From: Vulcanimicrobiota bacterium
Lineage (GTDB): Bacteria; Vulcanimicrobiota; Vulcanimicrobiia; Vulcanimicrobiales; Vulcanimicrobiaceae
Reading direction: 5' to 3'
DNA length: 64,000 bases
Assembly (NCBI GenBank): GCA_003168375.1
Contig: PMSI01000003.1
Coordinates: 372,001-436,000 of the forward strand
In this document: one piece after another, positions 5,984 to 57,147 of the stretch
Numbering within the stretch: the stretch's first letter is position 1
Layout of the letters: every line of letters begins with the position of its first letter
Made by a program: the position numbers and the translations under genes
Notes under the pieces: generated by a model
The model's input: only the letters and a program-made list of their open reading frames with translations
Databases searched by the model: none
What the model was told of the DNA's origin: nothing

Positions 5984-6080
5984 GGTCAATGCTCGCTTCT
6001 TTTACCGTACAAGACAGACGCTCGGAGCAGAAGCAGCGGGGCCATATGGGGCGCTGCCGGCTCTATCGCGGCGGGGAACG

Positions 6081-6109: not shown

Positions 6110-6240
6110 TATAGCCTACCGAACAGGTGTTCACGTACGAAATACCTGAAGTATGGCCGACTCTGGGCGTTTAGCCGCAAGGGTCGCTGAGCCAGTGCGG
6201 CGGTTCGGCACGGGTCAACACGCCGGCAAGGAGGTCACCG

Positions 6241-11698: not shown

Positions 11699-11716
11699 GT
11701 ATTAGGCCTAGCTGGC

Positions 11717-14264: not shown

Positions 14265-14741
14265 GCGCGGAGCCGCGTACTGAAAGCCGCGTGGCGGAGG
14301 CGACAATTGCTTCGGAGATGACCTCGATCGACGCGACCACGGCATCCACGAGCGCATCCCAGGCCGAACGTGGGTCGGGACGATCGTACCGGATCCCTGC
14401 CTTCTTGAGCGCGGCTTCGATGTCGCCGCTGAGCGCATGCGCACTCGTGACGCGCAACTCGTTCATCAGGCGCAGCGGCCCCATGACGCTCCGTACTTCG
14501 TCGTCGGGCAGCGCGACGACGTCGTCCAGGACACGACGCAGAAGTCCCAGCGATTTCTCGTCCTTGTCGAACTCGATGCCGGCGGACCTCAGGGCGGCGC
14601 GGAGCGAACCCACATTGAGCGGCTCCACGAGCGCTTCGTAGAGGGCCTTCACCAGCGCCGGAATCTCACCGAACTGTCCGGTCACCGGGCCGACGCTCAA
14701 ACGCCGGCGATCCCGCTCACGAGCCTTCTCTTCTTCAGGCT
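14123..14741. repeat. Segmental duplication, copy 1 (mate at 43945-44547)
   Basis: About 600 bases carrying the DoxX relic and the last ~165 codons of the gene on the minus strand are repeated at 43945-44547 with the same gene order and high similarity; for example TACTGAAAGCCGCGTGGCGG occurs in both. In the mate the gene is truncated and ends at a scrap of the HATPase repeat. The duplication shows that material has moved between distant parts of the island. Confidence 0.75.
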
Positions 14742-16023: not shown

Positions 16024-16421
16024 AGGCTCTATGATACGCGACGAGGATGTGGGCACTCAACGCTGATTGGAAATCGGTTCTACCTGCGCCCGGTGAGGTT
16101 GCGGTAACCGCGGTACTCCGCACTGACGTCGACCAGCACGGCGAGGACGCGTCGCAATTCCGATGCGGCGACGAACACGGGTTTTTCAACTCGACGAGGG
16201 CGCTCGACGCCCGCACCGACAGGTTCGCAGTACACCCTCGCGTTCACAGTGGATTACCGCGTACAACGCACTACGCTTCCTCCTAGGCCCAACCGCTCGT
16301 ACATTGGGTCCCCGACTCGTCCGGCAGACGGCCGCCACGTACGGCCAAATGCCCGCAGCGGACCCGAGCTCTTGGGGCGCTTTGCGGCGTCCTGGTCACG
16401 GGCTCGGAAGTTATATAGGGA

Positions 16422-19188: not shown

Positions 19189-22100
19189 TCAAGAACGTTT
19201 TGCCACCGCCTCTGTTCGTTTCCGCCCGAGCTCACGCAGCGCCCCATACATCGTTTCCAACTCCAAAATGACGTCTGGCCGTGCAACAAGGTCGCAACCA
19301 GTGAAAGTAGCTGGTTCAGCTTCCGGATCTCCGCGAACGACGCGCCACGTCCTGATGGCAATCGCGACGCGACCAAGGTCGTCGTACCAGCGGAGCGGTT
19401 CACCCGCCGCCGAATCCCGCAGGCGCCGTTCGTGTACGAACACGACCGGTGGCCGTAACCGCCACCATCCGCAAAGCCAATCGTCCGGCATTTCAATGCC
19501 GACGAGCGGGCCTCCGCCCAGAGACACCGTGCTAGCATCACAGAAGGGATAGACATCTTCCGGGATCACGTAGTCCCCGGGCTCGGTCACGACGCCCGCG
19601 TATGCTGACACCGTACGGTCTGGTCCACCGAAGCTGTCGTCGCCTTCTGGCAGTGAGCATTCGAGCTCGACATAGCCGAGACGAGTCCACCCTTCGAATG
19701 CCGGATCGTCTGAACCGACGATGGTCAGGTCCTCGGCGAGCCGAACAACCATCTCGGACGGACTCGGCCACGCTGGCCGTCGGCACCGGCTCGCTGCGTA
19801 TCCAAGGTGAAACGCGAGATCGAACGCCAGCGACCCCTCGAGTATGGCCGGATCCGGTCCGGTCGCGTCGTCTTGCACGTCTACCATGAACGTCGAGAGC
19901 GTGTCGTCGAGCGCTTCAAATAGCTTTTCGCGCTCCCAAAGGATCGTCGGCGTCGGTGGATATGCATCGAGGCGCATCCCGTGCATAAGCTCCGCACGCT
20001 CTCTGCGCGCGCTCGGGTCCGGCAGCATCGCGTACGCGCGGCGCTGTACTGTGTCGATTGCGACTGGAAAAAGATCGGTGACGTCCAATAGCGCGTTCCA
20101 GGCGCCAACGCTCATGAGGAACCGGCCGTCGGCTTTTCCGTACCGCTCGTCGTCTTCCGCCTGCGGCGGGGCAATGACCGCGGCCGGCGGAGCAATGAAA
20201 AGTCGTTCCAGGAGCGTGCGTGCCAGGCGACGCGTCGACCACGACCTAGAGGCGCAAAGCGTCCGTAGGACCGGCACGAGCTTCTGCGTCACCGCATAGG
20301 GTGCGGATTCGATTTCAGCCAATGCCCCAAGCACGAGAACGCGCGACGTTCGCGCGACGTCAAGGCCGAGCCACCACTCGAGCGGCCGAGGCACTCCGCT
20401 CGTGCGCCGACGCAAGGCATTCACAAAGCCACCGAGCGCCGCAATCTTGTAGTGTACCCGCGGATCCGAAACACGCGCGAGCAGAAGCGCGACTACAACC
20501 TCGTCGCCAGACCAATCACTTTTCAGTAACTGCTCCGATATTCGGGGGATCCATAAATGGTTGCGCAGACGAGGCGCACGACCGCGTATCACCGCGAGCA
20601 TCTCTTCCCAGGCGGCTTCGACGGTGGCGGTGTCGTCCAAATCCGCTAGGCGAGCCAGTACGTCATTCGATGTGCCACTTGGATAAGCGCTTGCGCTTAT
20701 CGTAGCAAGAACCTGATCGGCGTAGACCTCGCGCGCGACACGCGGGTCAAGCTCAATCGCGCGCGTCATCATCTGACGATGCTTACTGCCGCCGAAGGGC
20801 TCGAACCAAGGGCCGCGCGTAGAGGTGTACGCCAAGGCGTAAGCCATAGCGGCTTCTTGAGCGTGGCCACGATCCGCCAGTCGATCCGCCAGCGCAGCAA
20901 GGGGGTGCGTGTTCGATGAGCTTTCGACGCCCGCATCACGCGCGAAAAAGTAGAGGACGCGCGCGACGTCATCGTCCTTGCCGTCCGAGAGCATCTTGTG
21001 CAACCGGGTGCCGAGCGCGGTCACGATACCCAACCAGATTGCCGGGCGGGACGAAGCGAACGTCTCGCCGCGGGCCACGGTCCGAATCGCGCGATAAAGG
21101 TCAGGAAGACTCGTACCCAGCGAAGGCACTGGCTGCTGCGCTCCCGAGGGCGCTAGATCTTCCGCGGCGGTGGCGCGCGACATAGTTGTTTCATCGTCCG
21201 GCTCGTTGATATCCGGCGGAACGTTGGGAACGCCGGCTGCGGCGGCAAGGTGGCGAGAACGCGCACGGGGGCTGGCTCCCGCACACGCGTCGTCTGAGAG
21301 AACAGCATAGGCCACACGGAATGCGGCCGCCGCCTCGTCCGGTTCCTCAGCCGCGACCGCGCAGATGGGCGCGAACCGTCGGTCGACGTCCCGCACGTCC
21401 GTGGAGCCCGTGTATTCGCGTAATGGGATCGTGCGGAGGACGTCTTCGAGCAGCCGTGGGTCCGCCGCGGCGGCGTAGGTCTGCACAAGGTGTCGAAGGG
21501 CGTCCGCCGTCATCCAACCGGCCTCGCCCGTACTTTCCGCATTTCCGTGGGCGACCAGAATCCCAGCGGCTTCCGAGGCTATGCCGGACAACGACCGCAA
21601 GAACGCGTTGAGCGCCTGTTTGGTACCCTTTCCATCGGTGTGCGCGACGACAGCATCGACAACGTCCTGCACTTCGGGCGCCGCGGCGCGCGCACTTGTT
21701 GGCGCGACCCTTGCGAGGACGTCGAACCCCTCCAATAACTCGTACACGGTGCCGTCCTTGCGTTCGCCATACGCTGAAATGTACAGCGCCGCGTCGTCCC
21801 ACGCGCGAAGGGCAGCCGCATGATCCCGGGCAGTTGCGCGCCCCCGTGCCACGGAGATCGCAAAACATGCTAATATCGGATAGTGCGTCGCGGTGTGCGC
21901 GGCAACGTGATCCTCGAGGGCGCGAAGCGCGACATCTGCCAGGGACGTGTTCGAGACGTAGGGAAGCAGCAGACGGGCGAACATCGCAGTTGATATTGGG
22001 ATGACGTCCTCTCGGCTCAGGGAAGAACTTGTGTCACGCGCGACGCGTGAAAGCAGCGGAAGCACCTCCGCGAAGCTCTCAGGACTTCGCAGCAAGGACA

Positions 22101-25100
22101 AGCCGCGCGCCAAAGACTCCTCGATCAAGTTTCGCACCGGCCAGAGGTCGCATGCCCGAGGGTCGCCCGAGAACGGGCGCGCGTCGATTTCGAGAACGTG
22201 GAAAGCGGCGACAACATCGTTCACGTCGGCTAACTGCGCCGCTTCGAGGGTCGCGATGTCAATGACGTAGCGTAGCCACGATCGGTACCAGCCGGTGCCC
22301 GTCACGCGCTTTCGTTCGAACCGCAGTGTCGCGTCGTCGCCGCCAGCGCGGCGCGCATGCAGGCGCACCGCCGTAACCCATTCGCGGACGGGCTCTGCTT
22401 CGTGCAGGAATCCACCGAGGCCGATGCCACCCGCCACCTCGGCCGGCTGAATATCGTGAGCCGAAGGTACGCTCAGGGGCGCACCAAGTTCCAGGCAACG
22501 CACGAACATCTGGGCGTCATCTGCAAGAGCCGCCGCTTTGGTCGCAAGATCGCGCGTCAGCGTCTCCTCGTCGCGGGACCGCGCCGCCTCTGCGGCACCC
22601 ATCAACAGCGCACAGACGGCGTCCTCAGGAAGCCCGGCTCGACTCATCGCCGTTAGGGAATCGCCAAAGACCTTCGGCCCCAACACCTCTGCGGCGGTTG
22701 CCCCCATCTCCCGAAGGAACAGCGGCTTTGTGCGCTGTTCTCGAGCCAGGATGGCGTCCCAAAACGAAGACAATGCGCGATCCGGATCGAGCCGTAGTTC
22801 GCCTCGAAATTCGTCCACACCGATGCGCTCGTCAGCTTCGAGCTCTGCGCCACGGTCGGATAGAGAACCGACGCTCGACAGCTCCGAATCCTCAAGCTCC
22901 ACGTACTCACGCCAGGGCGGGACAGCGCCGCCGCGGTCAACGAGCGTGCACGCATAAAGCCCAATACCACGCTCCAAGGTAGGACGCCCATCGAATAGGA
23001 GCCGTTCTGCGAGCGCTGGGGCGCCGAAGACGTCGACATAGCCGCGAAGAAACTCGTCCCATCGGCCTTGCAACGAATCAAAGGCGGTCAGGGCACCGCG
23101 TTGGAGTTCCAGGCAGCGAACCATCCGCGGAAAGTCATCGGTCCGTCGCGCGAGGCCGGCGGCGAGTCCAATGTTCGCGAGGATCGGCTCTCGAGGATGT
23201 CCTGCGGCGATCGCGCTGCGTACGAACGCAGCGTCGACGAGAGACCACAGCTGCTGGCGGTCAACGGCGCGCACTAGCGCAGGCACAAGGAAGCGGAAGC
23301 TCCGCGCGTCCGCGAAGGCGCCATTGGAGCGAAGCCAGTCGATCACTGGGCCGAGGACGTCGGCGACAGAACGCCCGTCCGCGACGATTTGGTCCCCGAT
23401 AAAGCGGCGGAAACTCTCGTGAAAGACGCGAAAGCCTCCTTGTGCACTGGCTTCGACAAGAACCGGCTGCAGCATACGCAGCGCGCGCGGTACATAGCCG
23501 CGCTCGATGCTGCCCACAATGCTCTGAAGTTCGTGTTCGGTCACCGCGAAATCAATCACACCCAGAACGTCCGCGGTACCGCGGCCGGCACTCACCTCAA
23601 GGTACAAATGGCGGTAGTAGTCCTGCAGGGTCTTACCGTGCTTGCGCGACGAAAGCCAAGCACTCGGACTGACGATGGCACCTACCTCGGCGCCGAGCCG
23701 CAGTTCGACGCTGAGCGCTCGAGCGTAGAGCGGATTGCCGTCCGCTCGATCTGCAAGACGTTGCAGAGTCGTCTGTATCTCATGTTCCGAAAGACCAAGA
23801 GTTTGCAAAGCCTTCTCGACGCCGTGCAGACGTGCAAGAGAGGAAAGGTCGTCGGCGCTCCACAGCGGCAGCTCCTGAGAAATGACGCGATCTACCCAAG
23901 CCTCGCGCAGCGGCTGCAGATGCGCGCCAGGTTGAGATCCGACGATTACCGCGACGCCGGACGGGATGTCCAGCGCCGCGAGCTTTTCAATGATGTCGGC
24001 CTGTCCAGGTGCTACGTCGCCGGAATCCGCGAGCACGCGCGCGATGTGGTCGAGGCCGTCAACGACGAGCACCAAGGGTTGCTCCAAAGCCTCCGCGGCG
24101 GTAAACAATCGCTCCAGCGAAGCAATGTCAGCCGCAAATCCGATCGACACCTTCGCTAATTCGGAGGATTCACGCGTTAGCTCGTAGACGAGATTGCCAA
24201 AGAACGCGTTCGAGGTTATACGACGCGAGACGTGCTCATCGGACGGATCGAGATAGCAATAATGGCGGGCTACGATGGCGCCACGCGAACGTAGGTCTTC
24301 GGCGACCTGTGTGAGTTCCCAAGACTTTCCCGCGCCTGGCGGACCCGTCACGATCTGTAAGCGGCCGGCGAGGGCCCCCTCAACGAGGGAGCTATGCGCC
24401 TGCGAGCGCGCCACAAGCACCGACCGGTCGAGCGGATATGCCTGCGACACGTGACCGAAGTCCGTCTCTAGTCGAAGGCGGCTCGCGATCGTCGCTGGTG
24501 TTAATTCGGCACCCTGGGAACGCGCGGTCGTCGCCATGCTGACGGCCAGGGCCGCGACGTCGCTCGATCGTCTGTCCTGGTTGGGATAGCGTCCGACACC
24601 AACGCGACGTGACAGCAAATCGATTAGCGCTCGCTCCGCCGTACCCGGTGCCGAAAGGTCGAGCGATGCGTGCGGCATCTCGAGCTCGATGAAGAAGGCG
24701 TCGCAGAAGTCCACGAACTCACCGCGAGTAATCCCTCCGTCGGTCAACCGCTTCCATGCAGGCGCCCCGCCGTCAGGCCAGGCCGCGCGCGGATCGATTT
24801 TGAAAATCCGTGTGGTCGTCCCGGGGATCGTCGGCGCTGCGTCGATACGGCGCAGGTATTTCACAAGATCGTCGCCGTCGAGCGGTGGTGACCACGTGGC
24901 GCAGAGCCGATACTCATCCGCGGGAGTCCGCTCGGCGCTGCGCGTTCGCACTAATGCGTCGATGCGTAGGCTACTCCGTGAACCGGTAAAATCCGTCGCA
25001 AGAAGGCGCCTGCCCAGGTCGCCGCTCCACTTTATTTGCCGACGCACGCGTCGCGATGCAACGACGACCTCCAGATCGTCAACGCGATCGTCCGGTACAA

Positions 25101-25296
25101 TTTTTCGATCAACGACGACACGGTCGACGCCGTCAGCGAGCGCCTCGACCAGGGAATAGGCCGCAAGAAGATCCTGATAGATGTATCCGCGATGGGCGGC
25201 GCGCAATCTGTCCCCATCCGAGACCGCTTCGTGTTCGTGTTCGAAGGGCAGCACGAGCTGACTGGATACGGCGCGGGATGCCGAAATCTTCTTCAC
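19189..25296 (-). CDS. Avs-like nuclease-STAND NTPase (2035 aa)
   Basis: GTG 25296, preceded by AAGAGGA, is the best start although the frame is open further upstream. Residues ~30-200 form a Cap4/DUF4297-like PD-(D/E)xK nuclease: RGYIYQD, then D74 in VDDLEVV, then Q87-x-K89 in RRQIKWS. Residues ~300-560 are a STAND NTPase with Walker A GPPGAGKSW (~317-325) and Walker B LVLVVDGLDH (~406). The remaining ~1450 residues are a long helical repeat region, as expected for a sensor that binds phage protein. Avs proteins have this nuclease-STAND-repeat layout but are usually nearer 1200-1700 residues. It faces the small nuclease-like gene at 25461. Confidence 0.8.
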   Translation of the reverse strand: MKKISASRAVSSQLVLPFEHEHEAVSDGDRLRAAHRGYIYQDLLAAYSLVEALADGVDRVVVDRKIVPDDRVDDLEVVVASRRVRRQIKWSGDLGRRLLATDFTGSRSSLRIDALVRTRSAERTPADEYRLCATWSPPLDGDDLVKYLRRIDAAPTIPGTTTRIFKIDPRAAWPDGGAPAWKRLTDGGITRGEFVDFCDAFFIELEMPHASLDLSAPGTAERALIDLLSRRVGVGRYPNQDRRSSDVAALAVSMATTARSQGAELTPATIASRLRLETDFGHVSQAYPLDRSVLVARSQAHSSLVEGALAGRLQIVTGPPGAGKSWELTQVAEDLRSRGAIVARHYCYLDPSDEHVSRRITSNAFFGNLVYELTRESSELAKVSIGFAADIASLERLFTAAEALEQPLVLVVDGLDHIARVLADSGDVAPGQADIIEKLAALDIPSGVAVIVGSQPGAHLQPLREAWVDRVISQELPLWSADDLSSLARLHGVEKALQTLGLSEHEIQTTLQRLADRADGNPLYARALSVELRLGAEVGAIVSPSAWLSSRKHGKTLQDYYRHLYLEVSAGRGTADVLGVIDFAVTEHELQSIVGSIERGYVPRALRMLQPVLVEASAQGGFRVFHESFRRFIGDQIVADGRSVADVLGPVIDWLRSNGAFADARSFRFLVPALVRAVDRQQLWSLVDAAFVRSAIAAGHPREPILANIGLAAGLARRTDDFPRMVRCLELQRGALTAFDSLQGRWDEFLRGYVDVFGAPALAERLLFDGRPTLERGIGLYACTLVDRGGAVPPWREYVELEDSELSSVGSLSDRGAELEADERIGVDEFRGELRLDPDRALSSFWDAILAREQRTKPLFLREMGATAAEVLGPKVFGDSLTAMSRAGLPEDAVCALLMGAAEAARSRDEETLTRDLATKAAALADDAQMFVRCLELGAPLSVPSAHDIQPAEVAGGIGLGGFLHEAEPVREWVTAVRLHARRAGGDDATLRFERKRVTGTGWYRSWLRYVIDIATLEAAQLADVNDVVAAFHVLEIDARPFSGDPRACDLWPVRNLIEESLARGLSLLRSPESFAEVLPLLSRVARDTSSSLSREDVIPISTAMFARLLLPYVSNTSLADVALRALEDHVAAHTATHYPILACFAISVARGRATARDHAAALRAWDDAALYISAYGERKDGTVYELLEGFDVLARVAPTSARAAAPEVQDVVDAVVAHTDGKGTKQALNAFLRSLSGIASEAAGILVAHGNAESTGEAGWMTADALRHLVQTYAAAADPRLLEDVLRTIPLREYTGSTDVRDVDRRFAPICAVAAEEPDEAAAAFRVAYAVLSDDACAGASPRARSRHLAAAAGVPNVPPDINEPDDETTMSRATAAEDLAPSGAQQPVPSLGTSLPDLYRAIRTVARGETFASSRPAIWLGIVTALGTRLHKMLSDGKDDDVARVLYFFARDAGVESSSNTHPLAALADRLADRGHAQEAAMAYALAYTSTRGPWFEPFGGSKHRQMMTRAIELDPRVAREVYADQVLATISASAYPSGTSNDVLARLADLDDTATVEAAWEEMLAVIRGRAPRLRNHLWIPRISEQLLKSDWSGDEVVVALLLARVSDPRVHYKIAALGGFVNALRRRTSGVPRPLEWWLGLDVARTSRVLVLGALAEIESAPYAVTQKLVPVLRTLCASRSWSTRRLARTLLERLFIAPPAAVIAPPQAEDDERYGKADGRFLMSVGAWNALLDVTDLFPVAIDTVQRRAYAMLPDPSARRERAELMHGMRLDAYPPTPTILWEREKLFEALDDTLSTFMVDVQDDATGPDPAILEGSLAFDLAFHLGYAASRCRRPAWPSPSEMVVRLAEDLTIVGSDDPAFEGWTRLGYVELECSLPEGDDSFGGPDRTVSAYAGVVTEPGDYVIPEDVYPFCDASTVSLGGGPLVGIEMPDDWLCGWWRLRPPVVFVHERRLRDSAAGEPLRWYDDLGRVAIAIRTWRVVRGDPEAEPATFTGCDLVARPDVILELETMYGALRELGRKRTEAVAKRS

Positions 25297-25460
25297 CGAA
25301 CGTCCTCTTACGAGCGGAACGACGGCTAAGATCAGGCTTCGAGCCCGGCCGCGATCGAACGCGAATTTGGTGCAACGACAGCGTCCGGCAAGGTCCTCGC
25401 TTTCGAGGGCGTCGTGCCAGGGGGCGGGAGGAATGGGTAGGCCCTGCGGAAGCGGGCGGG

Positions 25461-25949
25461 ATGCCGTACTTTTTCGAGCAGCTCGTCGCGGAGTGGTACG
25501 AGTACCGGGGATACTTTGTGCGGCGAAATATCCGTGTGGGGAAGCGGCAGAACGGTGGCCACGACTTCGAACTCGATATTGTGGCGCTTCACGCACGTGA
25601 CCGGCACTTGGTCCACGTCGAAGCAACGATGGACACCAATACGTGGGATCGCCGTCGCGGGAAGATGGAGCGCACATTCATCGCGGCGCGGCACTACATT
25701 CCCAGCTTGTTTCCCGGTTTTAGCGAGTTACCGGAGCCCGAACATATTGCGCTCTTGGGTTTCGGCTCGAATACGAAGGTACAGACGATTGGCCTCGGTC
25801 GTGTTCAGACGCTCAACGAGCTGATGGCGGACATTCGGAGATCCGACATCATGGAAAAGTATGGGAAGAAGGCCATCCCCGAGCAATGCGTCATCTTACG
25901 TGCGATGCAATTTGCCGCAACGTGTTGGAGCGTTCCGCGACTTGGTTGA
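25461..25949 (+). CDS. Small PD-(D/E)xK-like protein
   Basis: 162 residues from ATG 25461 (MPYFFEQLVAEWYEYRGYFV), divergent from the Avs-like gene with 164 bases between. It has the core of a restriction-endonuclease-like fold: early Glu in FEQLVAEW, FELDIVALHARDRHLVHVEA with Asp and Glu as candidate metal ligands, then a basic TW-RRRGKMERTF helix. The third position reads Thr (EAT) instead of the usual Lys, so activity is uncertain. It may be a nuclease or an accessory protein of the Avs-like system; only its position suggests the latter. Confidence 0.55.
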   Translation: MPYFFEQLVAEWYEYRGYFVRRNIRVGKRQNGGHDFELDIVALHARDRHLVHVEATMDTNTWDRRRGKMERTFIAARHYIPSLFPGFSELPEPEHIALLGFGSNTKVQTIGLGRVQTLNELMADIRRSDIMEKYGKKAIPEQCVILRAMQFAATCWSVPRLG

Positions 25950-44062: not shown

Positions 44063-44547
44063 TCATTGCTTTGACGCGGGACCGCGTACTGAAAGCCGCG
44101 TGGCGGAGGCGACAATGGCTTCGGAGATGGCCTCGATTGACGCGACCACAACATCCACGAGCGCATCCCAAGCCGAACGCGGGTCGGGACGATCGTACCG
44201 GATGCCGGCCTTCTTGAGCGCGGCCTCGATGTCGGCACTCAGCGTATGCGCGCTCGTGACGCGCAACTCGCTCAGCAGGCGCAGCGACCCCGTGAGGGTC
44301 CGTACCTCGTCCTCGGGCAGGCCGACGACGTCGTCCAGAACACGACGGAGAAGTCCCAGCGATTTCTCGTCCTTGTCGAACTCGATGCGGGCGGCCCCCA
44401 GGGCGGCGCGAAGCGAACGCACGTTGAGCGGCTCCACGAGCGTTTCGTAGAGGGCCTTCGCCAGCGCCGGAATCTCGCCGAACTGTCCAGTCACCGGGCC
44501 GACGCTCATGCGCCGGCGATCCCGCTCCTGAGCCTTTTCTTCGTCAG
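44063..44547 (-). pseudogene. Truncated duplicate of the 589-residue gene's C-terminus
   Basis: Closely matches the last ~150-165 codons of 14254-16023 (SVGPVTGQFGEIPALAKALY, DKDEKSLGLLRRVLDDVVGL, YDRPDPRSAWDALVDVVVAS), including the stop. The match runs to about 44547, where it meets the HATPase 3' scrap. An internal ATG (44509) could still start a 148-residue protein, but the N-terminal domain is gone. Confidence 0.75.
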
Positions 44548-44573: not shown

Positions 44574-44753
44574 GCTTGCCGTTTGACTTTCATTGCAGAT
44601 CCGTACGTTAACGTTAATGGAAGGATAGCCGAGGCGGCGTTTCCAGACTTCAAAGATGCCGTGGCGGCCCTCCTCCCTACGTCCTAGCCTACTCGCGTGG
44701 AAAGCCGCGATAGGCGTCAGCTGCAAGGCGTCGAAACTCGTACGGCGACGGCG

Positions 44754-45240
44754 GTGCTTTGTGAAGCGGTTTGACTTTTTAGATCTCACTGGCGATGCCG
44801 CGCCCGCGATCGGATCACTCTCGCATGCCATCAGAGCCGCGTACGACGCGTGTACCGCAATTGCGGCGGCGCGGACGGTCGGGATTGTCCTCGATGACGT
44901 TCCGAACCTGGAGATCGCGATCGCCACCGACCGCCTTGCGCTGGTCCTCGTCAACCTGATCGATAACGCCGTCAAGCACGGCCGGCCCGGGGGCGGCGTC
45001 GACGTCGCCGACGACCGCTGCGTGCGCATCAGCGTCGACGACGACGGACCGGGTATTTGCCGCCGCCGACCGCGAGCGCATCTTTGCGCTCGGCGAACGC
45101 GCCACGACCGCGCCGAACGGCAGCGGTATCGGCCCTCGCGTTGATGCGGCTGATTCTCGAGCGCACGGGCGGGCGCGTCGAGCTCGTCAGACTCGCCACT
45201 CAGAGGTGCACGTTTTTCGATTACCGTACCGCGGGTTTGA
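44754..45240 (+). pseudogene. HATPase_c repeat copy I (stops and frameshifts)
   Basis: Starts GTGCTTTGTGAAGCGG (44754); the seventh codon is TGA and other frames are needed for the rest. LVNLIDNAVKHGRPGGG is intact, a 'VFVG' codon stretch is deleted before DVADDRCVRISVDDDGPG, and at least two later single-base shifts occur around 45055 and 45130. It ends ITVPRV-like with TGA at 45238-45240. It belongs with copies B and C. Confidence 0.8.
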
Positions 45241-45386
45241 GTCGCGGGCCGCAACTGGCGGCACCGCCAGCACGGCGGTTGGCAAGCAGCCGCTTGTAGT
45301 CTTGGTTTGCTTCACCCTACCCCAATGCTATTATTATGGCTCGGTGCAATCATGACCGAATAGGACAGTGGCGGAGGCAGTGGGGT

Positions 45387-46367
45387 GTGACGTTTGTATG
45401 GCGTACCGCGCGGTCGGTTGACCTGGCGCAATGCTTGGAGATCGCCGCCGACCGTTTCCTGTACGACGAGCGCTCGCTGGTCGCGCTCAAGGCGATGTGG
45501 TCTGAGGTTCTCGTTCGCGACATCGGGCGGGCTAGCGTCGTGGTGATGGACTGCGCGCGAGAGCGCATTCTCGGATTCGGGATCAGTGCGTTCGTCTCTC
45601 CGGCGTTGTTCGGATCGATCATTGGAGACGGCGAACCGTTCGTAACGCGCCAGTTGCTAGAACGCTGGCGCATCGGCGATCCACCGTTTCTCCACGAAAC
45701 CGGGATCGCTACGGCAAATGCCACGCGCGGTGTAAACGTTTTCGTCATGAACAGCGGCGCGACGTGCACCGGCGTAGAGTGTTCGGAGGAACGGCTTTTT
45801 CAATTGCTGGCAGACGCGTTCTTTGCCCAGCACGCCGGCCTGAACATCAGCGGGCTTGCGCACGAGTGCTTCGGCTCGTTTCACGAGAGCTGCAGCGAGC
45901 TTGGGATGCGGACGCGATTCTACGCGCATGACGCGACGCGAGTGCAAAGCATACCCGGCGACAGGCGCCCCTGCATCTCGTGGATGACGCGCGAGGAAGC
46001 GCTGCGCCCTCCTCGCTGCGCGGTCGATCAGGTCTTCACGCTCGCGACGAAACCACAACTCAATCTTGACGCAGGCGTACGTCGGGTGCTGCGGTTAGCG
46101 CTCGAAGGCGAGTCCGATGAGTACATCGCGGACGCTGTGGAGCTTTCCGTTGCAACAATCAAAAAACGATGGCTCCAAATATACGAGACATTCCGCTCCA
46201 GCACCGGACTCGTAGCGTACCAATGGCCCAAGGACCGTACGCTCGGCGACGGTCGAGGACCCGAGATGCGCCGGCACGTTCTCCGCTATATCCGCGAACA
46301 TCCCGAAGAACTCCACGCATGCGAGCTCCCATCAGGCAAGTCGCCCATTAGGAGTTACAGTGGGTGA
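45387..46367 (+). CDS. LuxR-type helix-turn-helix regulator
   Basis: A promoter (TTGCTT 45307-45312, 16 bases, TATTAT 45329-45334) would start transcription after the ATG at 45336, so I choose GTG 45387, which has GGAGG nine bases upstream (326 aa). The N-terminal ~220 residues look like an acyltransferase-type or ligand-binding fold. Residues ~240-290 (VRRVLRLALEGESDEYIADA, VELSVATIKKRWLQIYETF) form a LuxR/GerE-like helix-turn-helix. It overlaps the 2OG-fold gene by eight bases and probably controls the cluster. Confidence 0.7.
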   Translation: MTFVWRTARSVDLAQCLEIAADRFLYDERSLVALKAMWSEVLVRDIGRASVVVMDCARERILGFGISAFVSPALFGSIIGDGEPFVTRQLLERWRIGDPPFLHETGIATANATRGVNVFVMNSGATCTGVECSEERLFQLLADAFFAQHAGLNISGLAHECFGSFHESCSELGMRTRFYAHDATRVQSIPGDRRPCISWMTREEALRPPRCAVDQVFTLATKPQLNLDAGVRRVLRLALEGESDEYIADAVELSVATIKKRWLQIYETFRSSTGLVAYQWPKDRTLGDGRGPEMRRHVLRYIREHPEELHACELPSGKSPIRSYSG

Positions 46368-47094
46368 GTTCGAGATCAACACCGACGTCAACCTCGACCA
46401 GCTGTGCGAGACATTTCGCAATGACCGCCGCTTGCGCATCACGGAGTTTCTCGACCCGGCAAGCGCCGAGGCGCTCTATCACTACCTTGACAAGCGGGCG
46501 GAGTGGAGCTCGTTTCTGACCGACAAGGGTCGGATGTTCGAATTGCCTCCTGAAATACGACGGAACTGCAGCGCCGGCGGAGAGCAACGTTTGATCGATC
46601 TCGCTCATGCTAGCGCGCGAGACGGAGGAGTCGCGTATATCTACGATGCAACTCGCTGTTTCGCGGGCGATGCCGTCGCGTATGTCAAAGACGAATCAAT
46701 CCTCGCGCGCTTTGCCGATTTCGTGAATTCTCCCATGTTTCTGGACTTTGTGCGCCGCGTGAGTGGCGTAGAGGAACTCGACATGGCCGATGCTCAGGCG
46801 ATGCGCTTTCGTGCGGGTAACTTCATGACGTTCCATGGCGGCACGAGCTCGCTGGAGTACACTAAAACGCAGCGTGCATTCTATTCATACCAACTGACGC
46901 CGGAATGGAAGGCGGAGTGGGGTGGTTTGCTCGAGTTCAGAGGCACTGCTGCGCGCTCCGTTGAGGCATATGTCCCATGTTTCAACTGCCTGGACATGTT
47001 TGCGTTTCCGCAGGGACACTGGGTGAGTGCCGTGTCTCCATTTGCCGGTGGGTCGACCTATTCAGTACGCGGAGGTATTTTCGCGCATCCGTGA
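46360..47094 (+). CDS. Fe(II)/2-oxoglutarate-dioxygenase-fold protein with HxG instead of HxD
   Basis: GTG 46360 with AGGAG six bases upstream; 244 residues, exactly the length of its paralogue at 49811-50545. The prolyl-hydroxylase-type core is clear (WKAEWGGLLEF, CLDMFAFPQGHWVSAVSP). The iron motif reads H159-G160-G161, so the Asp of HxD is Gly; the distal His220 is kept. The Arg that binds 2-oxoglutarate (R234 in the paralogue) is Thr233, with an Arg four residues later. Loss of the Asp is what distinguishes Fe/2OG halogenases, where chloride takes its place, but the lost Arg makes a dead or non-enzymatic protein equally possible. Confidence 0.75.
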   Translation: MGEFEINTDVNLDQLCETFRNDRRLRITEFLDPASAEALYHYLDKRAEWSSFLTDKGRMFELPPEIRRNCSAGGEQRLIDLAHASARDGGVAYIYDATRCFAGDAVAYVKDESILARFADFVNSPMFLDFVRRVSGVEELDMADAQAMRFRAGNFMTFHGGTSSLEYTKTQRAFYSYQLTPEWKAEWGGLLEFRGTAARSVEAYVPCFNCLDMFAFPQGHWVSAVSPFAGGSTYSVRGGIFAHP

Positions 47095-47130: not shown

Positions 47131-48237
47131 ATGACCATCATGTCGGAGTCGGCTGCGGTGCTGCGCGACGCCAAGCTGGCATATCGCGACGGAGGCATTG
47201 TCGAGGCTGAGGCGCTATGCCGGCGCCTCCTGCGCAGGCATCCCACCAGTGCCGGAGCGCTGCACCTATTGGGCATGCTTCATGCTGCCCGCGGCGATGC
47301 TGCGGAGGCCGTTCGATTGTACGCGCAATCACTCGCGTACTCGCCAGAGCAGTCCGAGGTCTGGTGCGATCTGGCGACGGCGTACCAGCAGTGTGGGATG
47401 TCGACGAAGGCTATTGGCGTTTTGGTCCGGGCGATCTCGATCTACCCGCGTCGCTATCGTGCCTACGGACTGCTCGGAGCGCTGTATTATCAGCTTGGGC
47501 GCATCGGCGACGCAGCCGACCTCTACAGAGAGTGGTTTCGCAGAGATCCGACCAATGTCGAAGTTCATCACATGGTTCTGTCCACGCGAGCCGGGAGCGA
47601 TTCACCGCCGCGCTGTTCAGATGCCTTCGTGAGAGCTCATTTTGATAATTGCGCCGACGTCTTCGACGAGCGCCTGATCAAGCGCCTCGGCTACAGGGGC
47701 CATCAGATTGTCGCCGGAGCGTACAAAAGGAGCACGCCGACACTTCGAGGCGGCGTCCTGGACGCAGGGTGCGGGACCGGCCTGTGCGGGCCTTTAGTGC
47801 GCCCCTATTGCGGTCACTTGGTCGGTGTTGATCTGTCGGAGAACATGATCGAGCGCGCTCGCGCTCGAGGTGTCTACGACGAACTCATCGTTGGCGAGCT
47901 GTGCGCTTTCATGGCTTCAAGGCCGGACGCATTTGCTGCGATCATAGCGGCAGATGTTCTCATCTATTTTGGCACCCTGGAGCCGGTGATGAAAGCAGCA
48001 TACCGTGCGCTTCAGCCCGAGGGCATTCTGGCGGTTACCTTCGAGCTGCTCGCGGGTTCTGGTCCGCAATCGTATCGGCTGGAAGTCCACGGCCGATACT
48101 GCCACACAGAGGCGTACGTGAGGAATGTACTCTCCCAGGCCGGGTTCGAGTCGCTGCACATCCGGCAGGAAACAATTCGATTGGAGCTTGGCAAGGAAGC
48201 CATCGGGATCGTAGCTGTCGCCCGCAAGGTATCGTGA
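47131..48237 (+). CDS. TPR-SAM methyltransferase fusion
   Basis: 368 residues. The first ~150 are four tetratricopeptide repeats (IVEAEALCRRLLRRHPTSAG, DAAEAVRLYAQSLAYSPEQS, and others). Residues ~170-360 are a class I methyltransferase: motif I GGVLDAGCGTGLCG, acidic loop VGVDLSENMIERARA, and IIAADVLIYFG as motif II/III. Such fusions occur beside 2OG oxygenases in peptide- or protein-tailoring clusters; the substrate is unknown. Thirty-six bases separate it from the 2OG-fold gene. Confidence 0.8.
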   Translation: MTIMSESAAVLRDAKLAYRDGGIVEAEALCRRLLRRHPTSAGALHLLGMLHAARGDAAEAVRLYAQSLAYSPEQSEVWCDLATAYQQCGMSTKAIGVLVRAISIYPRRYRAYGLLGALYYQLGRIGDAADLYREWFRRDPTNVEVHHMVLSTRAGSDSPPRCSDAFVRAHFDNCADVFDERLIKRLGYRGHQIVAGAYKRSTPTLRGGVLDAGCGTGLCGPLVRPYCGHLVGVDLSENMIERARARGVYDELIVGELCAFMASRPDAFAAIIAADVLIYFGTLEPVMKAAYRALQPEGILAVTFELLAGSGPQSYRLEVHGRYCHTEAYVRNVLSQAGFESLHIRQETIRLELGKEAIGIVAVARKVS

Positions 48238-48272: not shown

Positions 48273-49829
48273 TCACCCGTCCACCGAGTCGTCCGATGGC
48301 TGTGCAAACGCCTCGTCCCGGCCCTGCCGAATGAATTCATAAACCCGCTCGGCGCAACGTTGCAATTGATCCTCATGCGTCAGGACCAGCGCATTTGCCA
48401 CGCGTATCGGATCACCTCGGGAAAACCGCTCGTATAGCACCTGCCGCGATGCAAACGCGGACACCGAGGCGTCCCAGGCTAGACGAAACATGGGAATACG
48501 ATCAAAAGCTTCAGCCCGAGCGGCCTGATAGAACTTCTTGATGTCTTCTGCAAGCGGTCCCCTAACGTCAGCTTCCGTTGGCATCGCGACGAGGCCGCTG
48601 GCGCCGATCTGCTGAATGATCTCGACCATACGGGGATACATGCGAGAGAAAAGAATGCATGCTGCAACCAAGGGATCCTCGGCCGGTCGCATGATTTGCC
48701 ATTCATCGAGCGCCGCGTCGGCTTCGGCCGCACGCAGGCACGCTTTCATTGTCTCTGCGTTGAGCCACAGCTCAGCCAGTTTCTCATAAATGTGCTGAAA
48801 CACCTCAGCTCCGATGCTGTTCACCAGGAGCGAAGCGAGGCCCAGCATGAACTCGGCCTTGACGATGTTCTTTACAACAGTCTGGTGGTCCATGTGCACC
48901 GCGGCGCCGGTACGACTGAAGGCGCTGTTGCACCGCGGTACGTCATGAGAGACGAATATATTCTCCCACGGCACCAGAACATCGTCGAAGATTACTACTG
49001 CATCAAGCTCTTCAAACCGCGAGGCCAGAGGATGGTCGTAGTGGGAGCGACCGTAGTCGACGCTCTCTCGGCATATGAATCTGATTCCCTGTGTGTCACT
49101 TGGAATCGAGAACACGAACGCATACGGGGCTTCCTGCTCGGGGTTGCGGAGCGGTGCGCCGGAATACACCAAGAGTTCATCAGCGATCGGAAGAGTAGCT
49201 AACATTCGGCAGCCGCGGACAATGAGCCCGGCATTCGTTTCCTCCTTGATGCGCGCGGCGAGAAAAGGATCGGCCTGATTCGCGACCGACGCCGCACGGT
49301 TAGCCTGCGGGGAACTCAGCGTTGCAGTCATACAGAGATCGTGTTCGCGTAGATACTCGTACCGCCGCAGTGCGTTCGCTCCAAATCGCGAGTCTGCTTC
49401 GGAAAAGTACGCAGCGCCTGCCGCTAACCCCATTGCGCCCCTGTTGAGATAGGTCGGCAGGCGCCCCATCATGCCGTGAGTGTGTTCTTCCCAGATGCGC
49501 ATCGCATCGCTGACGACCCGAAGATCTTCTAGTGTTCGGGGCATCATGAACGACCGACCGACTTTATGGCCGGACGTTGGGGAGTCGTAGAGGGTGACGT
49601 CAGGCCTCTCCCACTGCACGTCGTATAGGCGGGCCAACGTGTGTACGACGCCCCTGAAGGCCGGATGCGTTGTGACATCCGTAACGAGCTCACCGCGATG
49701 CCAAATACAGCGGGGATGCTCGCGGAGCCGCCGTAGGAAGTCTTGTCCCTGGCGCGCGCCACTCGATGCGGCATCAGTTCGCGCAGCCTTGCGAGTCGTG
49801 CCTATTGTGTTTATTCGCCGTGAAGCCAA
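48273..49829 (-). CDS. HpaB-family FADH2-dependent monooxygenase
   Basis: 518 residues, the normal size for 4-hydroxyphenylacetate 3-hydroxylase-type oxygenases. Family features include DFLRRLREHPRCIWHRGELV at the N-terminus, the acyl-CoA-dehydrogenase-like middle (TNAGLIVRGCRMLATLPIAD, AVVIFDDVLVPWENIFVSHD) and the helical C-terminus (SGLVAMPTEADVRGPLAEDI). HpaB enzymes hydroxylate phenols using FADH2 from a separate reductase (HpaC), which is absent here. Its start overlaps the 3' end of the 2OG-oxygenase gene by 19 bases, so the two are co-expressed. Substrate unknown; a tyrosine-like residue on a peptide or carrier is possible. Confidence 0.85.
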   Translation of the reverse strand: MASRRINTIGTTRKAARTDAASSGARQGQDFLRRLREHPRCIWHRGELVTDVTTHPAFRGVVHTLARLYDVQWERPDVTLYDSPTSGHKVGRSFMMPRTLEDLRVVSDAMRIWEEHTHGMMGRLPTYLNRGAMGLAAGAAYFSEADSRFGANALRRYEYLREHDLCMTATLSSPQANRAASVANQADPFLAARIKEETNAGLIVRGCRMLATLPIADELLVYSGAPLRNPEQEAPYAFVFSIPSDTQGIRFICRESVDYGRSHYDHPLASRFEELDAVVIFDDVLVPWENIFVSHDVPRCNSAFSRTGAAVHMDHQTVVKNIVKAEFMLGLASLLVNSIGAEVFQHIYEKLAELWLNAETMKACLRAAEADAALDEWQIMRPAEDPLVAACILFSRMYPRMVEIIQQIGASGLVAMPTEADVRGPLAEDIKKFYQAARAEAFDRIPMFRLAWDASVSAFASRQVLYERFSRGDPIRVANALVLTHEDQLQRCAERVYEFIRQGRDEAFAQPSDDSVDG

Positions 49830-50545
49830 CCCGAGATTGCCAGGCGCGGTCCGCCGGCGGATGGCGAGACGCAGCTTACTGCGTGAGCCATCGGTACCTG
49901 GAAGATATTGAGCGAGTTGAACCGAGGAACATAGGCCTCAGCGATATGTCCAGTTGAACTCATGAATTCGAGTAGGCCGCCCCACTCGGGTCTCCATTCT
50001 CGAGTGAGATTAATGACGTACGCGATGCGCCTGCTTCCTGTACACGAGTCGTCGTGGAACGCGAGAAAGTGTCCCTCGCGAAAGCGAGTAGCTGTTGCTT
50101 CCACCCATTCAATGTCGCCGGCAGCGGTGAGGCGGCGGACAAAGTCTATGAAGGACGGCGAGTTCAGAAAGGCGCCGAACGTCTTGAGCAGACCGTCAGG
50201 TTGGGCGCGCTGCAGCGCACCGTCGTCTCGGCGCGTGGTGAGCCTATTGGTCTCATACAGAAAGGCGTACCCCTCACGGCCGGCCGAATGCGCAAGTTCA
50301 GCCAGTGCGCGGTCTTGCTCCGGGCTATACAGACTGCGCTTCTCGGGAGGAACTTCCCAGAGATGGTTGCGGCTGAATAAAAAGTAGCTCCACTCGACTT
50401 CTTGCAGAAGATGGTGGTGCAATGCCTCGGCGCCTTCAGGGTCGAGAAAGTCTGGTATGTGCAATCGTCCGGCTGTACGAAACGCAGAACGTAGCGTATC
50501 CGGGTCGAGATCGGAATTGATTCGAAACGGTATTGTCAGGTTCAT
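49811..50545 (-). CDS. Fe(II)/2-oxoglutarate-dependent dioxygenase with complete metal triad
   Basis: 244 residues. Iron ligands H164-x-D166 (LAFHDDSCT) and H221 (PMAHAVSCVSP), and R234 for the 2-oxoglutarate carboxylate (GGPRLAISGWLH), are all present, so this is probably an active prolyl-4-hydroxylase-type oxygenase. It shares overall length and the REWRPEWGGLLEF core with the HxG protein at 46360, so the two are paralogues that have diverged. It lies between the 65-residue peptide gene and the HpaB gene on the minus strand. Confidence 0.85.
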   Translation of the reverse strand: MNLTIPFRINSDLDPDTLRSAFRTAGRLHIPDFLDPEGAEALHHHLLQEVEWSYFLFSRNHLWEVPPEKRSLYSPEQDRALAELAHSAGREGYAFLYETNRLTTRRDDGALQRAQPDGLLKTFGAFLNSPSFIDFVRRLTAAGDIEWVEATATRFREGHFLAFHDDSCTGSRRIAYVINLTREWRPEWGGLLEFMSSTGHIAEAYVPRFNSLNIFQVPMAHAVSCVSPSAGGPRLAISGWLHGE

Positions 50546-50674: not shown

Positions 50675-50872
50675 CTACTCGGTCTGCTTACGAACCCGTA
50701 CCAGAATCTCGAACTTCCCGGTAGAGATCGTAAGCGCCGTATCTTGTGAGACTTGACCGAGATCGACGAGGTGAAGCTCTGGGCTACCGACCGTCTCTTT
50801 TGCTGGCCTTGCAGGATCGTACCCTTGGCCGCTTGCTCGCTTCTGGGAAGGATCGTTCCGCTCGTTACCCAT
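50675..50872 (-). CDS. Small peptide gene heading the oxygenase operon (65 aa)
   Basis: ATG 50872 has GAGGA seven bases upstream. MGNERNDPSQKRASGQGYDP is hydrophilic and probably disordered; the C-terminal third (LTISTGKFEILVRVRKQTE) is beta-prone and basic. It is followed, 129 bases downstream on the same strand, by the active 2OG oxygenase and the HpaB monooxygenase. By position it could be a peptide substrate or a regulator. It has no Cys and no known leader motif, so a RiPP precursor is only a possibility. Confidence 0.5.
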   Translation of the reverse strand: MGNERNDPSQKRASGQGYDPARPAKETVGSPELHLVDLGQVSQDTALTISTGKFEILVRVRKQTE

Positions 50873-51368
50873 GGCCGAATCCTCATCTTCCTATCGCTTG
50901 AGTAGGGTAGGCGCTGTGCAAGGGCAGCGCGTGCTCCGGCGCGCAGCGGGCCGTCACGCAAGTACTGCGCCGCGCGAATAGCCGACGACTGCACACTCTC
51001 GAACGCCGGTACTTCTCGCTTGCTTGCCCCTCTTCCAATCCTATGATGGGGCCCCTGTGCAAATCAATGACCTAATAGGATATTGCGTATGCATAGGAGG
51101 GCGACGATCAGCCCGAAATCGTGCGCGGCAGCTACGACGGGCTCCTGGCATGCGGAACGTCTTTGTTCAGCGAGGATAAAGGGGCAAGGTCTCACGGCGG
51201 GGGGCGAGGGTACGATTCCTTTAGTCCGGAGGGTCCTCTTGCCGCCGACCTCGTGGTGCTCTAGAGCGTTTTCGTTTTAGACCGCTGCTCGGCTTGAGCA
51301 TCGGCTGGCAGCGGGATGTCGCTCGAGGCGGCATTCGGTAGGCGTCGAATAAACTAGGTGTATCGCCG
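50873..51368. other. Gene-free stretch between the peptide gene and copy J
   Basis: About 500 bases in which I find no convincing gene. It contains AGGAGGG at about 51096-51102, which is not followed by a useful start codon. The upstream control region of the minus-strand oxygenase operon must be here, but no clear promoter was found. Confidence 0.4.
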
Positions 51369-51866
51369 GTGCTTTATGAATCGGTTTGGCTCTTGGATAT
51401 GCGTGATGCAGAGGCGTTGCCCACGATGGGCTCGCTCGAACTCGCGCTGGCGGCCGCACGAGACGCGTGTGCGGCGTCTGCTGCTTCACGTGGGGTCGGA
51501 ATCGAGATAGCCGACATTCAGTCGATCCAGATCGGCCTCGACACAGATCGGCTGACGCTCGTGCTTGTCAATCTGATCGACAACGCGGTGAAGCATGGGC
51601 GCCCGGGTGGTGGTGTATTCGTCACCGTCGACGCAAGTGACCGCCGCATGGCGCGCGTGATCGTCGACGACGACGGGCCGGGGATCGCCGATGCCGACAG
51701 CCAGCGCGTTTTCGCGCTCGGCAAACGTGCTTCGACGACTGCCGATGGGAGCGGAATTGGACTCGCGCTCGTGCGACTGCTCGTCGAGCGCGCCGGTGGG
51801 CGCGTCGACGTATCCGCTTCGCCGCTCGGCGGCGCGCGCTTTGTTATCACCATGTCGCAGTTGTGA
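51369..51866 (+). CDS. HATPase_c repeat copy J (intact, most divergent)
   Basis: GTG 51369, VLYESVWLLDMRDAEALPTM, to ITMSQL and TGA. The start motif has drifted (GTGCTTTATGAATCGG) and the end is SQL instead of PR[VA]. Catalytic motifs stay intact: LVNLIDNAVKHGRPGGG, DDDGPGIADAD, VFALGKRASTTADGSGIGL, which is midway between the two subgroups. Intact motifs in such a diverged copy argue for selection on the protein. Confidence 0.88.
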   Translation: MLYESVWLLDMRDAEALPTMGSLELALAAARDACAASAASRGVGIEIADIQSIQIGLDTDRLTLVLVNLIDNAVKHGRPGGGVFVTVDASDRRMARVIVDDDGPGIADADSQRVFALGKRASTTADGSGIGLALVRLLVERAGGRVDVSASPLGGARFVITMSQL

Positions 51867-55266: not shown

Positions 55267-55293
55267 GCAAAAGGCCGAACCGATCCGCGCGGA

Positions 55294-55683
55294 CTACCCG
55301 CCGGGGCAGGGGCTCGGGCAAAGCTTGGCTTGGAACTGCTTCGCGACGGAGAGCGGGATGCCGTAACGCTTCACCATCATCGATGCGTAGGTGACGCCGC
55401 CATCCGTTCCCAAGAAGCGCCACGCGCCGTTCTTCAGGTGCAGCCACGCGTTACCCTCAGCATTGCCGCCGCCCGTTCCAAAGGAGCATTGCGCCCACGT
55501 CTGTACGAGGAAGCAAGAAGGCTGCTCGATATCCGTGTTTCCCACCGACCGGAAGTGCGCGACCAGCGCCGACACGGCCGCCTTCTGCGCCGGCGTCGCG
55601 GCGTAGACCGGGACCGTTGCCAACAGGGTCAGCGTCGCGATGAATGCGAGTACCTGTCTGACGAAAGACGCGCGGTTTGACAT
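55294..55683 (-). CDS. Small exported protein (129 aa)
   Basis: ATG 55683 with AGGAG seven bases upstream. Signal peptide MSNRASFVRQVLAFIATLTL, cleavage near VYAATPAQK. The mature ~100 residues contain four cysteines (PSCFLVQTWAQCSFG, KLCPSPCPGG), compatible with two disulfides, and WLHLKNGAWRFLGTDGG. Family unknown. It is divergent from the flavin monooxygenase gene. Confidence 0.65.
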   Translation of the reverse strand: MSNRASFVRQVLAFIATLTLLATVPVYAATPAQKAAVSALVAHFRSVGNTDIEQPSCFLVQTWAQCSFGTGGGNAEGNAWLHLKNGAWRFLGTDGGVTYASMMVKRYGIPLSVAKQFQAKLCPSPCPGG

Positions 55684-55815
55684 AGGGTAACTCCTGTTCT
55701 TGACCTCGTCGCCGGTTCGGGATCGCTTTGCCTTCGCCTTCGATTGACCGGCGCGCACGACCCGCGGGCGCCGTGCGCTGACGGAGGTACCGGCCGGATC
55801 GCGAAGTGACCGGCC

Positions 55816-57147
55816 TTGTCGTCTGCCGCCCTTTCCGGCTCGCCTGCCGAACGCACAGAAGATCGATTTGCCCTGGTCGGCGCCGGGCCGATCGGCCTGG
55901 CGGTCGCGCGAGCCCTGAAGCAGCACGGGGTTCCGTACGTGCAGTTCGAGCGCGCCAGCGAACTCGGCGGCAATTGGCGCGACGGGGTGTACGAGACCGC
56001 CCACATCATCTCGTCGCGGAGGACGACCGAGTTCACCGATTACCCGATGCCGGCGGACTATCCGGACTTCCCGAGCGCCGCCCAGATGCTTGCCTACCTT
56101 CAGGAATACGCGCGGCACTACGACCTCGCCCCGCAGATCGCTTTCGAGACGAGCGTGAGCGACGCGCGACCCGTCGTGCGCGGTGGCGAGGAACGCTGGG
56201 AGCTAGCATTCGGCGACGGCACGCGCGGCGTCTACAAGGGGGTGATCGCGTGCATCGGCCATCATTGGGACCGGCGCTGGCCCTCGTATCCGGGGACGTT
56301 CGCCGGCGAGCTGATGCATTCCAAGGACTACCGCACGCCGGAGCAGCTCCGCGGCAAGCGCGTGCTCACGATCGGCGGCGGCAACTCCGCCTGCGACATC
56401 GCTTCAGAAGCGGCCCGGGTCGGTGCGTCCTCGCACATCAGCAATCGGCGCGGCTACTGGTTCTTGCCCAAGACGCTGTTCGGCGTCCCGCTGGTCGAGC
56501 TCATCCGGCCCTGGATGCCGCTGTGGCTGCAGCGGATCTTCCTGCGCACGGCCCTGGCCGTTTCGGTCGGCGACTACCAGCGGTACGGCTTGCAGAAGCC
56601 GGACCACGCGATCTTCGAGCACCATCCGACGCTCAACAGCGAGCTGCTGCACTACATCAAGCACGGCCGCATCACGCCGCACCCCGACGTGGCGCGCTAC
56701 GACGGCGACTTCGTCGAGTTCGTCGACGGGAAGCGCGAGCGCTTCGACGTGATCGTCGCCGCGACCGGATTCCACCAGACGATCCCGTTCCTCTCGGCCG
56801 ACCTCGTGCCGATCGAGGGGCCGATCGTGAAGCTGTACGGTTCGATGATGAGCGATCGCTTCCGGAACATGTACGTGTTCGGCTGGTCGCAAGCACGCTA
56901 CGGCTTCGGTCCGATTGTCTCGCCCGGCGCCGACCTGCTGGCCGAGGTGATTCTGGCGCAGGCGAGGATGCGCCATCCGATCGGCGCCGTGCTGAAGAAG
57001 ATGGGCGCGAAGCTGCCCCGCACGCACCTGGTCGATCCGCACGCCGCGATCCGCCAGATCCGGCGCGCGCGCAAGCGTTTGCCGATGCTGGCGAAGATGG
57101 AGAAGGTCGTGATGCGCGACCGGCCGGCGCCCGGCACCGCTGCGTGA
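55816..57147 (+). CDS. Flavin-containing monooxygenase (FMO/Baeyer-Villiger type)
   Basis: 443 residues. FAD-binding Rossmann motif FALVGAGPIGLAVARA (~18-33), the FMO-type segment CIGHHWDRRWPSYPG, NADPH-binding motif VLTIGGGNSACDIASEA (~183-199) and an ATG-like VAATGFHQTIPF near the end. The length matches class B flavoprotein monooxygenases. The stop overlaps the dehydrogenase start (GTGA). Oxidation by this enzyme and carbonyl/alcohol interconversion by the neighbour would form a two-step pathway on a lipid or ketone substrate; which one is unknown. Confidence 0.85.
   Translation: MSSAALSGSPAERTEDRFALVGAGPIGLAVARALKQHGVPYVQFERASELGGNWRDGVYETAHIISSRRTTEFTDYPMPADYPDFPSAAQMLAYLQEYARHYDLAPQIAFETSVSDARPVVRGGEERWELAFGDGTRGVYKGVIACIGHHWDRRWPSYPGTFAGELMHSKDYRTPEQLRGKRVLTIGGGNSACDIASEAARVGASSHISNRRGYWFLPKTLFGVPLVELIRPWMPLWLQRIFLRTALAVSVGDYQRYGLQKPDHAIFEHHPTLNSELLHYIKHGRITPHPDVARYDGDFVEFVDGKRERFDVIVAATGFHQTIPFLSADLVPIEGPIVKLYGSMMSDRFRNMYVFGWSQARYGFGPIVSPGADLLAEVILAQARMRHPIGAVLKKMGAKLPRTHLVDPHAAIRQIRRARKRLPMLAKMEKVVMRDRPAPGTAA

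Follow-up and report, generated by a model that had tools for sequence, protein, structure and literature searches.

A probable pseudoenzyme of the 2OG-oxygenase fold within a 62-kb array of displaced sensor-kinase gene ends

Introduction

The solved structures that most resemble the protein described here include the uS12 prolyl hydroxylases OGFOD1 and Tpa1. In OGFOD1, Arg230 and Tyr169 are described as holding the far carboxylate of a 2OG mimic, with Arg230 belonging to an RXS motif that also contains Ser232; Ser234, which is equated with PHD2 Thr387, is placed near the metal waters, and Trp236 lines the active-site groove (PMC4396695). The effect of replacing the metal Asp has been reported for a P4H, for which the D414A and D414G variants had neither hydroxylase nor halogenase activity and were nonetheless produced like the wild type and retained poly(proline) binding (PMC2767507). 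For the Fe/2OG halogenase BesD, R218 is reported to contact the C5 carboxylate of succinate (PMC13244439).

We analyzed a 64,000-nucleotide stretch of a Vulcanimicrobiota genome, here called the window, which encodes both an intact 2OG oxygenase of the P4H-like type and a degenerate paralogue of it (Table 1). An initial annotation had proposed that the degenerate protein was either the founder of a new halogenase lineage or a non-catalytic partner. Here we compare this protein with its relatives and with known enzymes and describe the array of repeated kinase gene ends in which it lies.

Results

The reading frame of the degenerate protein is unbroken across its 244 codons, its start overlaps the stop of the ORF upstream by 8 bp, and its GC content by codon position resembles that of the neighboring genes. 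The protein scored above the Pfam cut-offs for both PF13661 (31.2 bits, cut-off 27) and PF10637 (32.2 bits), and a BLASTP comparison with the paralogue gave 41% identity over 240 columns (186 bits). Its description in the initial annotation as a 2OG-oxygenase paralogue in which HxD is changed to HxG was confirmed, the altered motif being H159-G-G161, and every residue number given there was correct (H159, G161, H220, T233, and R237, and H164, D166, H221, and R234 of the paralogue). The annotation was also right that the 2OG-binding Arg is gone (T233) and that another Arg lies four residues on (R237); it had missed the loss of the Trp (G239) and the fact that R237 occupies a Thr/Ser column. Sequencing error was judged an unlikely source of these changes; the altered codons (GGC, ACC, CGC, and GGT) fall in two separate stretches.

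Table 1. Features of the window, with positions counted from its first nucleotide
Feature	Position	Strand	Remarks
Displaced kinase 3' ends	2890, 8287, 18538, 27187, 33379, 35154, 41025, 43259, 44753, 51368	+	
Pycsar-type pair	3652-7158		Cyclase PycC, 394 bits; cyclic-nucleotide/TIR effector, 397 bits; E2-like gene adjoining
Two adjacent ThsB-type TIR proteins	11120-12883		222 and 254 bits
2162-aa protein	19189-25677	-	AAA/NACHT-type ATPase region
Island left flank	44753-45237	+	21-bp motif at 44753-44773; decayed sensor-kinase 3' fragment
343-aa protein	45336-46367	+	C-terminal helix-turn-helix (below Pfam cut-offs); stop overlaps start of degenerate protein gene
Shine-Dalgarno-like AGGAG	46350-46354	+	5 bases ahead of GTG
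Degenerate 2OG-oxygenase-fold protein	46360-47094	+	244 aa; GTG start
Codons of H159-G160-G161	46834-46842	+	CAT GGC GGC; H-D-D in paralogue
Codon of H220	47017-47019	+	Retained second metal His
Strand with T233, S235, R237, G238, G239	47056-47076	+	T233, family Arg; R237, family Thr/Ser; G239, family Trp
TPR repeats and class I methyltransferase domain	47131-48237	+	Downstream of degenerate protein gene
HpaB-type flavin-dependent monooxygenase	48273-49829	-	TIGR02309 equivalog, 565.8 bits (cut-off 480.2)
Paralogue	49811-50545	-	Intact H164, D166, H221, R234, W240; PF13661, 75 bits
Island right flank	51368-51866	+	21-bp motif at 51368-51388 (1 mismatch); open sensor-kinase 3' fragment, 165 codons

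The 2-His-1-Asp metal triad of the degenerate protein is incomplete, with H159 and H220 present and the Asp replaced by G161, and the Arg for the C5 carboxylate of 2OG is replaced by T233. Further changes are the replacement of the family Trp by G239 and, in the same barrel, A174F and V176S. Homologous ORFs were drawn from 80 genome contigs, 16 viral contigs, two plasmids, and one phage-labelled record, giving an alignment of 121 ORFs that included the degenerate protein and its paralogue; counts were made on the 119 others. Both His residues, the Asp, the Arg, and the Trp were kept in all 119, and G161, T233, and G239 occurred in the degenerate protein alone. At the column of R237, 118 of the 119 had either Thr or Ser, and the paralogue had Ser. 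Since the Asp is present in the paralogue as well as in every other homologous ORF, the alignment indicates that it was not lost through random change at an unconstrained position, and since all of the others keep it, G161 would mark a lone degenerate copy and not a lineage. The initial annotation had looked to conservation of G161 among homologues for support, which was found in none of the 119, and to random substitutions at this position as evidence against its proposal, which were not seen either; apart from this one deviating protein, the position is invariably Asp.

The genome contigs were scanned with two peptide patterns taken from an alignment that included the degenerate protein, one of them permitting H[DG][DG]. 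The scan retained 80 of 86 confirmed stretches and would leave relatives carrying neither pattern undetected, so further relatives are possible given its reliance on two short patterns. Searches of 59 other genomes near the source genome found no relative of the degenerate protein at E <= 1e-10, and at E <= 1e-6 there was none in the 148 other genomes of the phylum (149 in total), the paralogue in the same genome being the only match.

Among 113 distinct homologues, 28 columns were near-invariant (at least 93% conservation). The degenerate protein kept 20 of these, structural ones above all, and lost eight (T148, L156, D161, A174, V176, R233, T237, and W239), which sit on or beside barrel-core strands in the predicted model; the paralogue lost three. 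Losses fell on 4 of 6 active-site columns and on 4 of 22 others (Fisher p = 0.038, a value barely below 0.05 for active-site columns that we picked ourselves), a skew that is statistically weak but one-directional. In a tree made by a quick method from 115 rows, after short and identical ones were removed, the degenerate protein grouped with the paralogue as its sister (SH-aLRT 97), with an end branch of 1.09 compared to 0.65 for the paralogue.

The longer branch of this sole sequence of its kind also fits plain decay. According to this main rival explanation the gene is on its way out, a duplicate freed from selection once it had reached the island and drifting without function, and the single known copy and the plain decay of other parts of the array, such as the frameshifted kinase fragments described below, are consistent with it. 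Such drift has to be set against the 244 open codons, the Shine-Dalgarno-like AGGAG and the overlap with the preceding ORF, both preserved, the 20 near-invariant family columns that were kept, and the confident predicted fold, and we consider it rather unlikely.

AlphaFold2, run on a 67-row alignment, gave a model of the degenerate protein with a pLDDT of 92.7 and a pTM of 0.90. The best matches of this model among solved structures were Tpa1 (Z 20.7, 194 residues), OGFOD1 (Z 20.0), and P. putida P4H (Z 19.9), followed by PHD2 (Z 18.9) and PolD (Z 18.8), and the predicted fold is the double-stranded beta-helix of the P4H-like Fe(II)/2OG oxygenases (PF13661/PF13640). The halogenases WelO5, SyrB2, and BesD were absent among the 50 structure matches listed, which has no bearing on fold membership. 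OGFOD1 was the sole clear PDB sequence match of the paralogue, and the paralogue strand RLAISGW aligns without gaps on RLSISGW of OGFOD1, so that T233, S235, R237, and G239 of the degenerate protein correspond to Arg230, Ser232, Ser234, and Trp236. Use of R237 as a substitute for the 2OG-binding Arg, which the initial annotation had suggested, was rejected on the alignment, since in this register R237 aligns with OGFOD1 Ser234 and, by the published equivalence, PHD2 Thr387 instead of with Arg230. R237 would lie beside the former metal site, where its charge would oppose Fe(II) binding.

Two-His sites can hold metal in other families. Both His residues are retained in the degenerate protein, and the loop after G161 is longer than in relatives, contains E166, and is among the regions modelled with less confidence (mean pLDDT of 73 for residues 161 to 170). 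A rewired site might thus be imagined in which H159, H220, and another ligand, for example E166, bind a metal different from that of the Fe(II)/2OG site and support some other catalysis. The positive charge of R237 would adjoin that metal, and the arrangement occurs in no aligned relative; we regard it as highly improbable.

The proposal of a new halogenase lineage would require chloride to substitute for the Asp, with 2OG held by R237 or some other residue. The degenerate protein does show the halogenase pattern, HxG with both His residues kept (H159-G-G161 and H220), and the nearby HpaB and methyltransferase genes could be part of a natural-product pathway. However, the 2OG-binding Arg and the active-site Trp are gone, R237 stands at the Thr387/Ser234 position, and the Gly is shared by none of the 119 relatives, so that HxG is not conserved within a lineage among them; no extra copy was found in the 149 phylum genomes at the threshold given above. 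In addition, P4H D414A and D414G are reported not to have become halogenases (PMC2767507), and BesD is reported to retain R218 (PMC13244439). A halogenase is, on this evidence, very improbable, and we abandoned the proposal.

The closest relatives outside the source genome were alphaproteobacterial PF13661 oxygenases, mostly from Sphingomonadales and in one locus (L003) encoded beside TonB receptors, with approximately 29 to 38% identity over nearly the full length. All of these keep the H..D, H, R, and W residues, unlike the degenerate protein, and in the flanks examined none of their genes had a gene for HpaB, the 343-aa regulator, or a TPR-methyltransferase nearby. The viral contigs yielded 16 distant relatives, and the seven of their ORFs that entered the alignment all had the Asp and the Arg. 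A phage search gave a single match, to a 6.8-kb unverified scaffold labelled 'Bacteriophage sp.' (L005, MT838130.1), which contains an ORF resembling a TonB receptor, a 2OG gene that is almost the same as one from Sphingomonas, and a ClpB-like end and is probably mislabelled bacterial DNA. On a Blastomonas plasmid (L004:1334-3698), the surroundings of a 2OG homologue include an ABC exporter with a peptidase domain and two small ORFs whose leaders resemble each other and are double-Gly-like (MRDL..FE..HVSGAG). This context suggests that some family members may modify peptides; the gene upstream did not match the 343-aa protein (E 0.86). When the paralogue and the degenerate protein were compared to the PADLOC models, the former matched a CRISPR-associated 2OG model (51 bits) and the latter matched none at E <= 0.1.

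The HpaB and paralogue genes likely form one operon, because the start of the HpaB gene overlaps the end of the paralogue gene. A 65-aa ORF (50675-50872, minus strand) lies upstream of the paralogue, with no support for a role as a RiPP precursor. The five-gene set was seen in the source genome only, between two displaced sensor-kinase 3' ends. At E <= 1e-5, homologues of the HpaB, TPR-methyltransferase, and 343-aa proteins were found in none of 99 loci from other organisms, searched with flanks of up to 8 kb, many of them shorter. This absence indicates that the genes are not a conserved set, and the cluster with oxygenase, HpaB, and methyltransferase pointed out in the initial annotation is accordingly real in the source genome and not conserved beyond it. 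In 60-genome samples of the phylum, which included the source genome, the 343-aa protein (E <= 1e-5) and HpaB (E <= 1e-20) each had a relative in one other genome, and the TPR-methyltransferase had none (E <= 1e-20).

The sensor kinase whose ends flank this set is intact at C6:363874-365058, after a response regulator and ahead of the window (C6:372001-436000), and is present in all 11 genomes of the genus. Ten displaced copies of its last approximately 165 codons follow within the window in the same orientation, some open and others frameshifted or cut. Nine of the ten are led by the 21-bp motif GGTGCTTTGTGAAKCGGTTTG with zero to three mismatches, where none would be expected by chance. The motif was not found in the 20 kb upstream, and a search of the whole genome with up to two mismatches gave eight occurrences, all within the array, and none of the reversed pattern. 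Upstream of the motif, no similarity among the copies was visible. Six open-frame copies or kinase ends of the source genome and two sequences from the sister genome G001 were compared, decayed copies being excluded, and gave pairwise dN values of 0.06 to 0.32 and dS values of 0.42 to 1.53, which indicates that the open fragments evolved largely as coding sequence. The motif is nearly unchanged even at third codon positions.

In the sister genomes G004 and G002, DNA matching window positions 55286-56497 and 55295-55614, respectively, lies no more than approximately 300 bases after the kinase end, and these junctions indicate that approximately 62 kb were inserted in the source genome. Sister genome G001 has two displaced fragments, and between its kinase and the first of them lies DNA matching the small cassette at 33.4 to 35.6 kb of the window. 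The array is most simply read as the product of insertions that recurred at a single site of the kinase gene, with every cassette supplying a kinase end and displacing the older ones, and the result looks like serial island insertion that replaced the ATPase end of the kinase each time. A parallel for insertion that brings its own gene end is the icd gene of E. coli, into which phage 21 and e14 insert. The array contains neither a tyrosine recombinase (PF00589; four in the genome) nor a resolvase (PF00239; five matches in the genome), and a rival explanation is homologous recombination through the 500-bp fragments instead of site insertion.

The array also carries defense genes. In addition to the Pycsar-type pair and the ThsB-type proteins, the 2162-aa protein is possibly a large STAND-type defense protein, and an SMI1/KNR4 immunity-type gene upstream of the window is also array cargo. 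By eye, a 148-aa ORF (44063-44509, minus strand) repeats nearly the whole C-terminal part of a 600-aa protein (14254-16056, minus strand) in a different cassette, which hints at exchange or duplication between cassettes.

Discussion

We consider it likely that the degenerate protein is a pseudoenzyme, non-catalytic and most likely acting by binding. The predicted fold is retained and the catalytic residues are lost, and the signs of translation are the open frame and the Shine-Dalgarno-like AGGAG; together with the confidently predicted fold, these speak for a protein in use. In the course of events that we propose, an ancestral P4H-like 2OG oxygenase would have been duplicated, the copies now lying in opposite orientations within a single mobile island. 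One of them, the paralogue, would have retained its Fe(II)/2OG site, and the other would have retained the double-stranded beta-helix and both metal His residues, lost the metal Asp, the 2OG-binding Arg, and the active-site Trp, and gained an Arg (R237) beside the former metal water site. This degenerate copy would bind neither Fe(II) nor 2OG in the normal way, and we take it to be non-catalytic because P4H variants with the Asp changed to Ala or Gly are reported to be inactive (PMC2767507) and the halogenase BesD is reported to retain its 2OG-binding Arg (PMC13244439). Its translation apparently continues, with coupling to the regulator gene upstream, and the protein may hold the substrate or partner enzymes or regulate the intact paralogue. 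The alternative raised in the initial annotation, a non-catalytic partner, fits the evidence, and we infer that the protein probably has a binding or regulatory partner role. If that role is true, the protein offers a natural test case for a 2OG fold working without metal and cofactor.

A more specific arrangement can be imagined, in which the dead 2OG-fold subunit, with an Arg in its former metal site, and the live paralogue form a two-part oxygenase, and the pair travels with HpaB as one cassette of a new type of serial island array, each cassette giving a core sensor kinase a different ATPase end; taken as a whole, this seems to us quite unlikely. The array itself is more unusual than the degenerate protein, and it is this wider locus that matters more: a 62-kb array apparently built by serial insertion at one sensor-kinase gene, with defense cargo and no recombinase of PF00589 or PF00239. 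Among literature on genomic islands and on mobile elements of Eremiobacterota, no similar array was found by title, a result that cannot prove its absence from print.

The degenerate protein resembles the N-terminal domain of the OGFOD1/Tpa1 uS12 prolyl hydroxylases, its best fold match (Z 20.0 to 20.7). Conversely, those enzymes include an additional domain at the C terminus, their metal and 2OG sites are intact, and their chains have 457 to 647 residues, whereas the degenerate protein has one domain of 244 aa and neither site. With the Fe/2OG halogenases SyrB2 and BesD it shares the replacement of the metal Asp by Gly or Ala and the two retained His residues. Halogenases are described as having a chloride site (PMC2767507), and BesD as having the 2OG-binding R218 (PMC13244439), in place of which the degenerate protein has a Thr, plus an Arg by the metal site. 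For genome mining, HxG alone is thus an unreliable indicator of halogenases, occurring here with loss of the 2OG-binding Arg in one lone sequence. The P4H D414A and D414G variants carry the same change of the metal Asp but were made by mutation, whereas the protein described here is natural and has additional losses in its active site.
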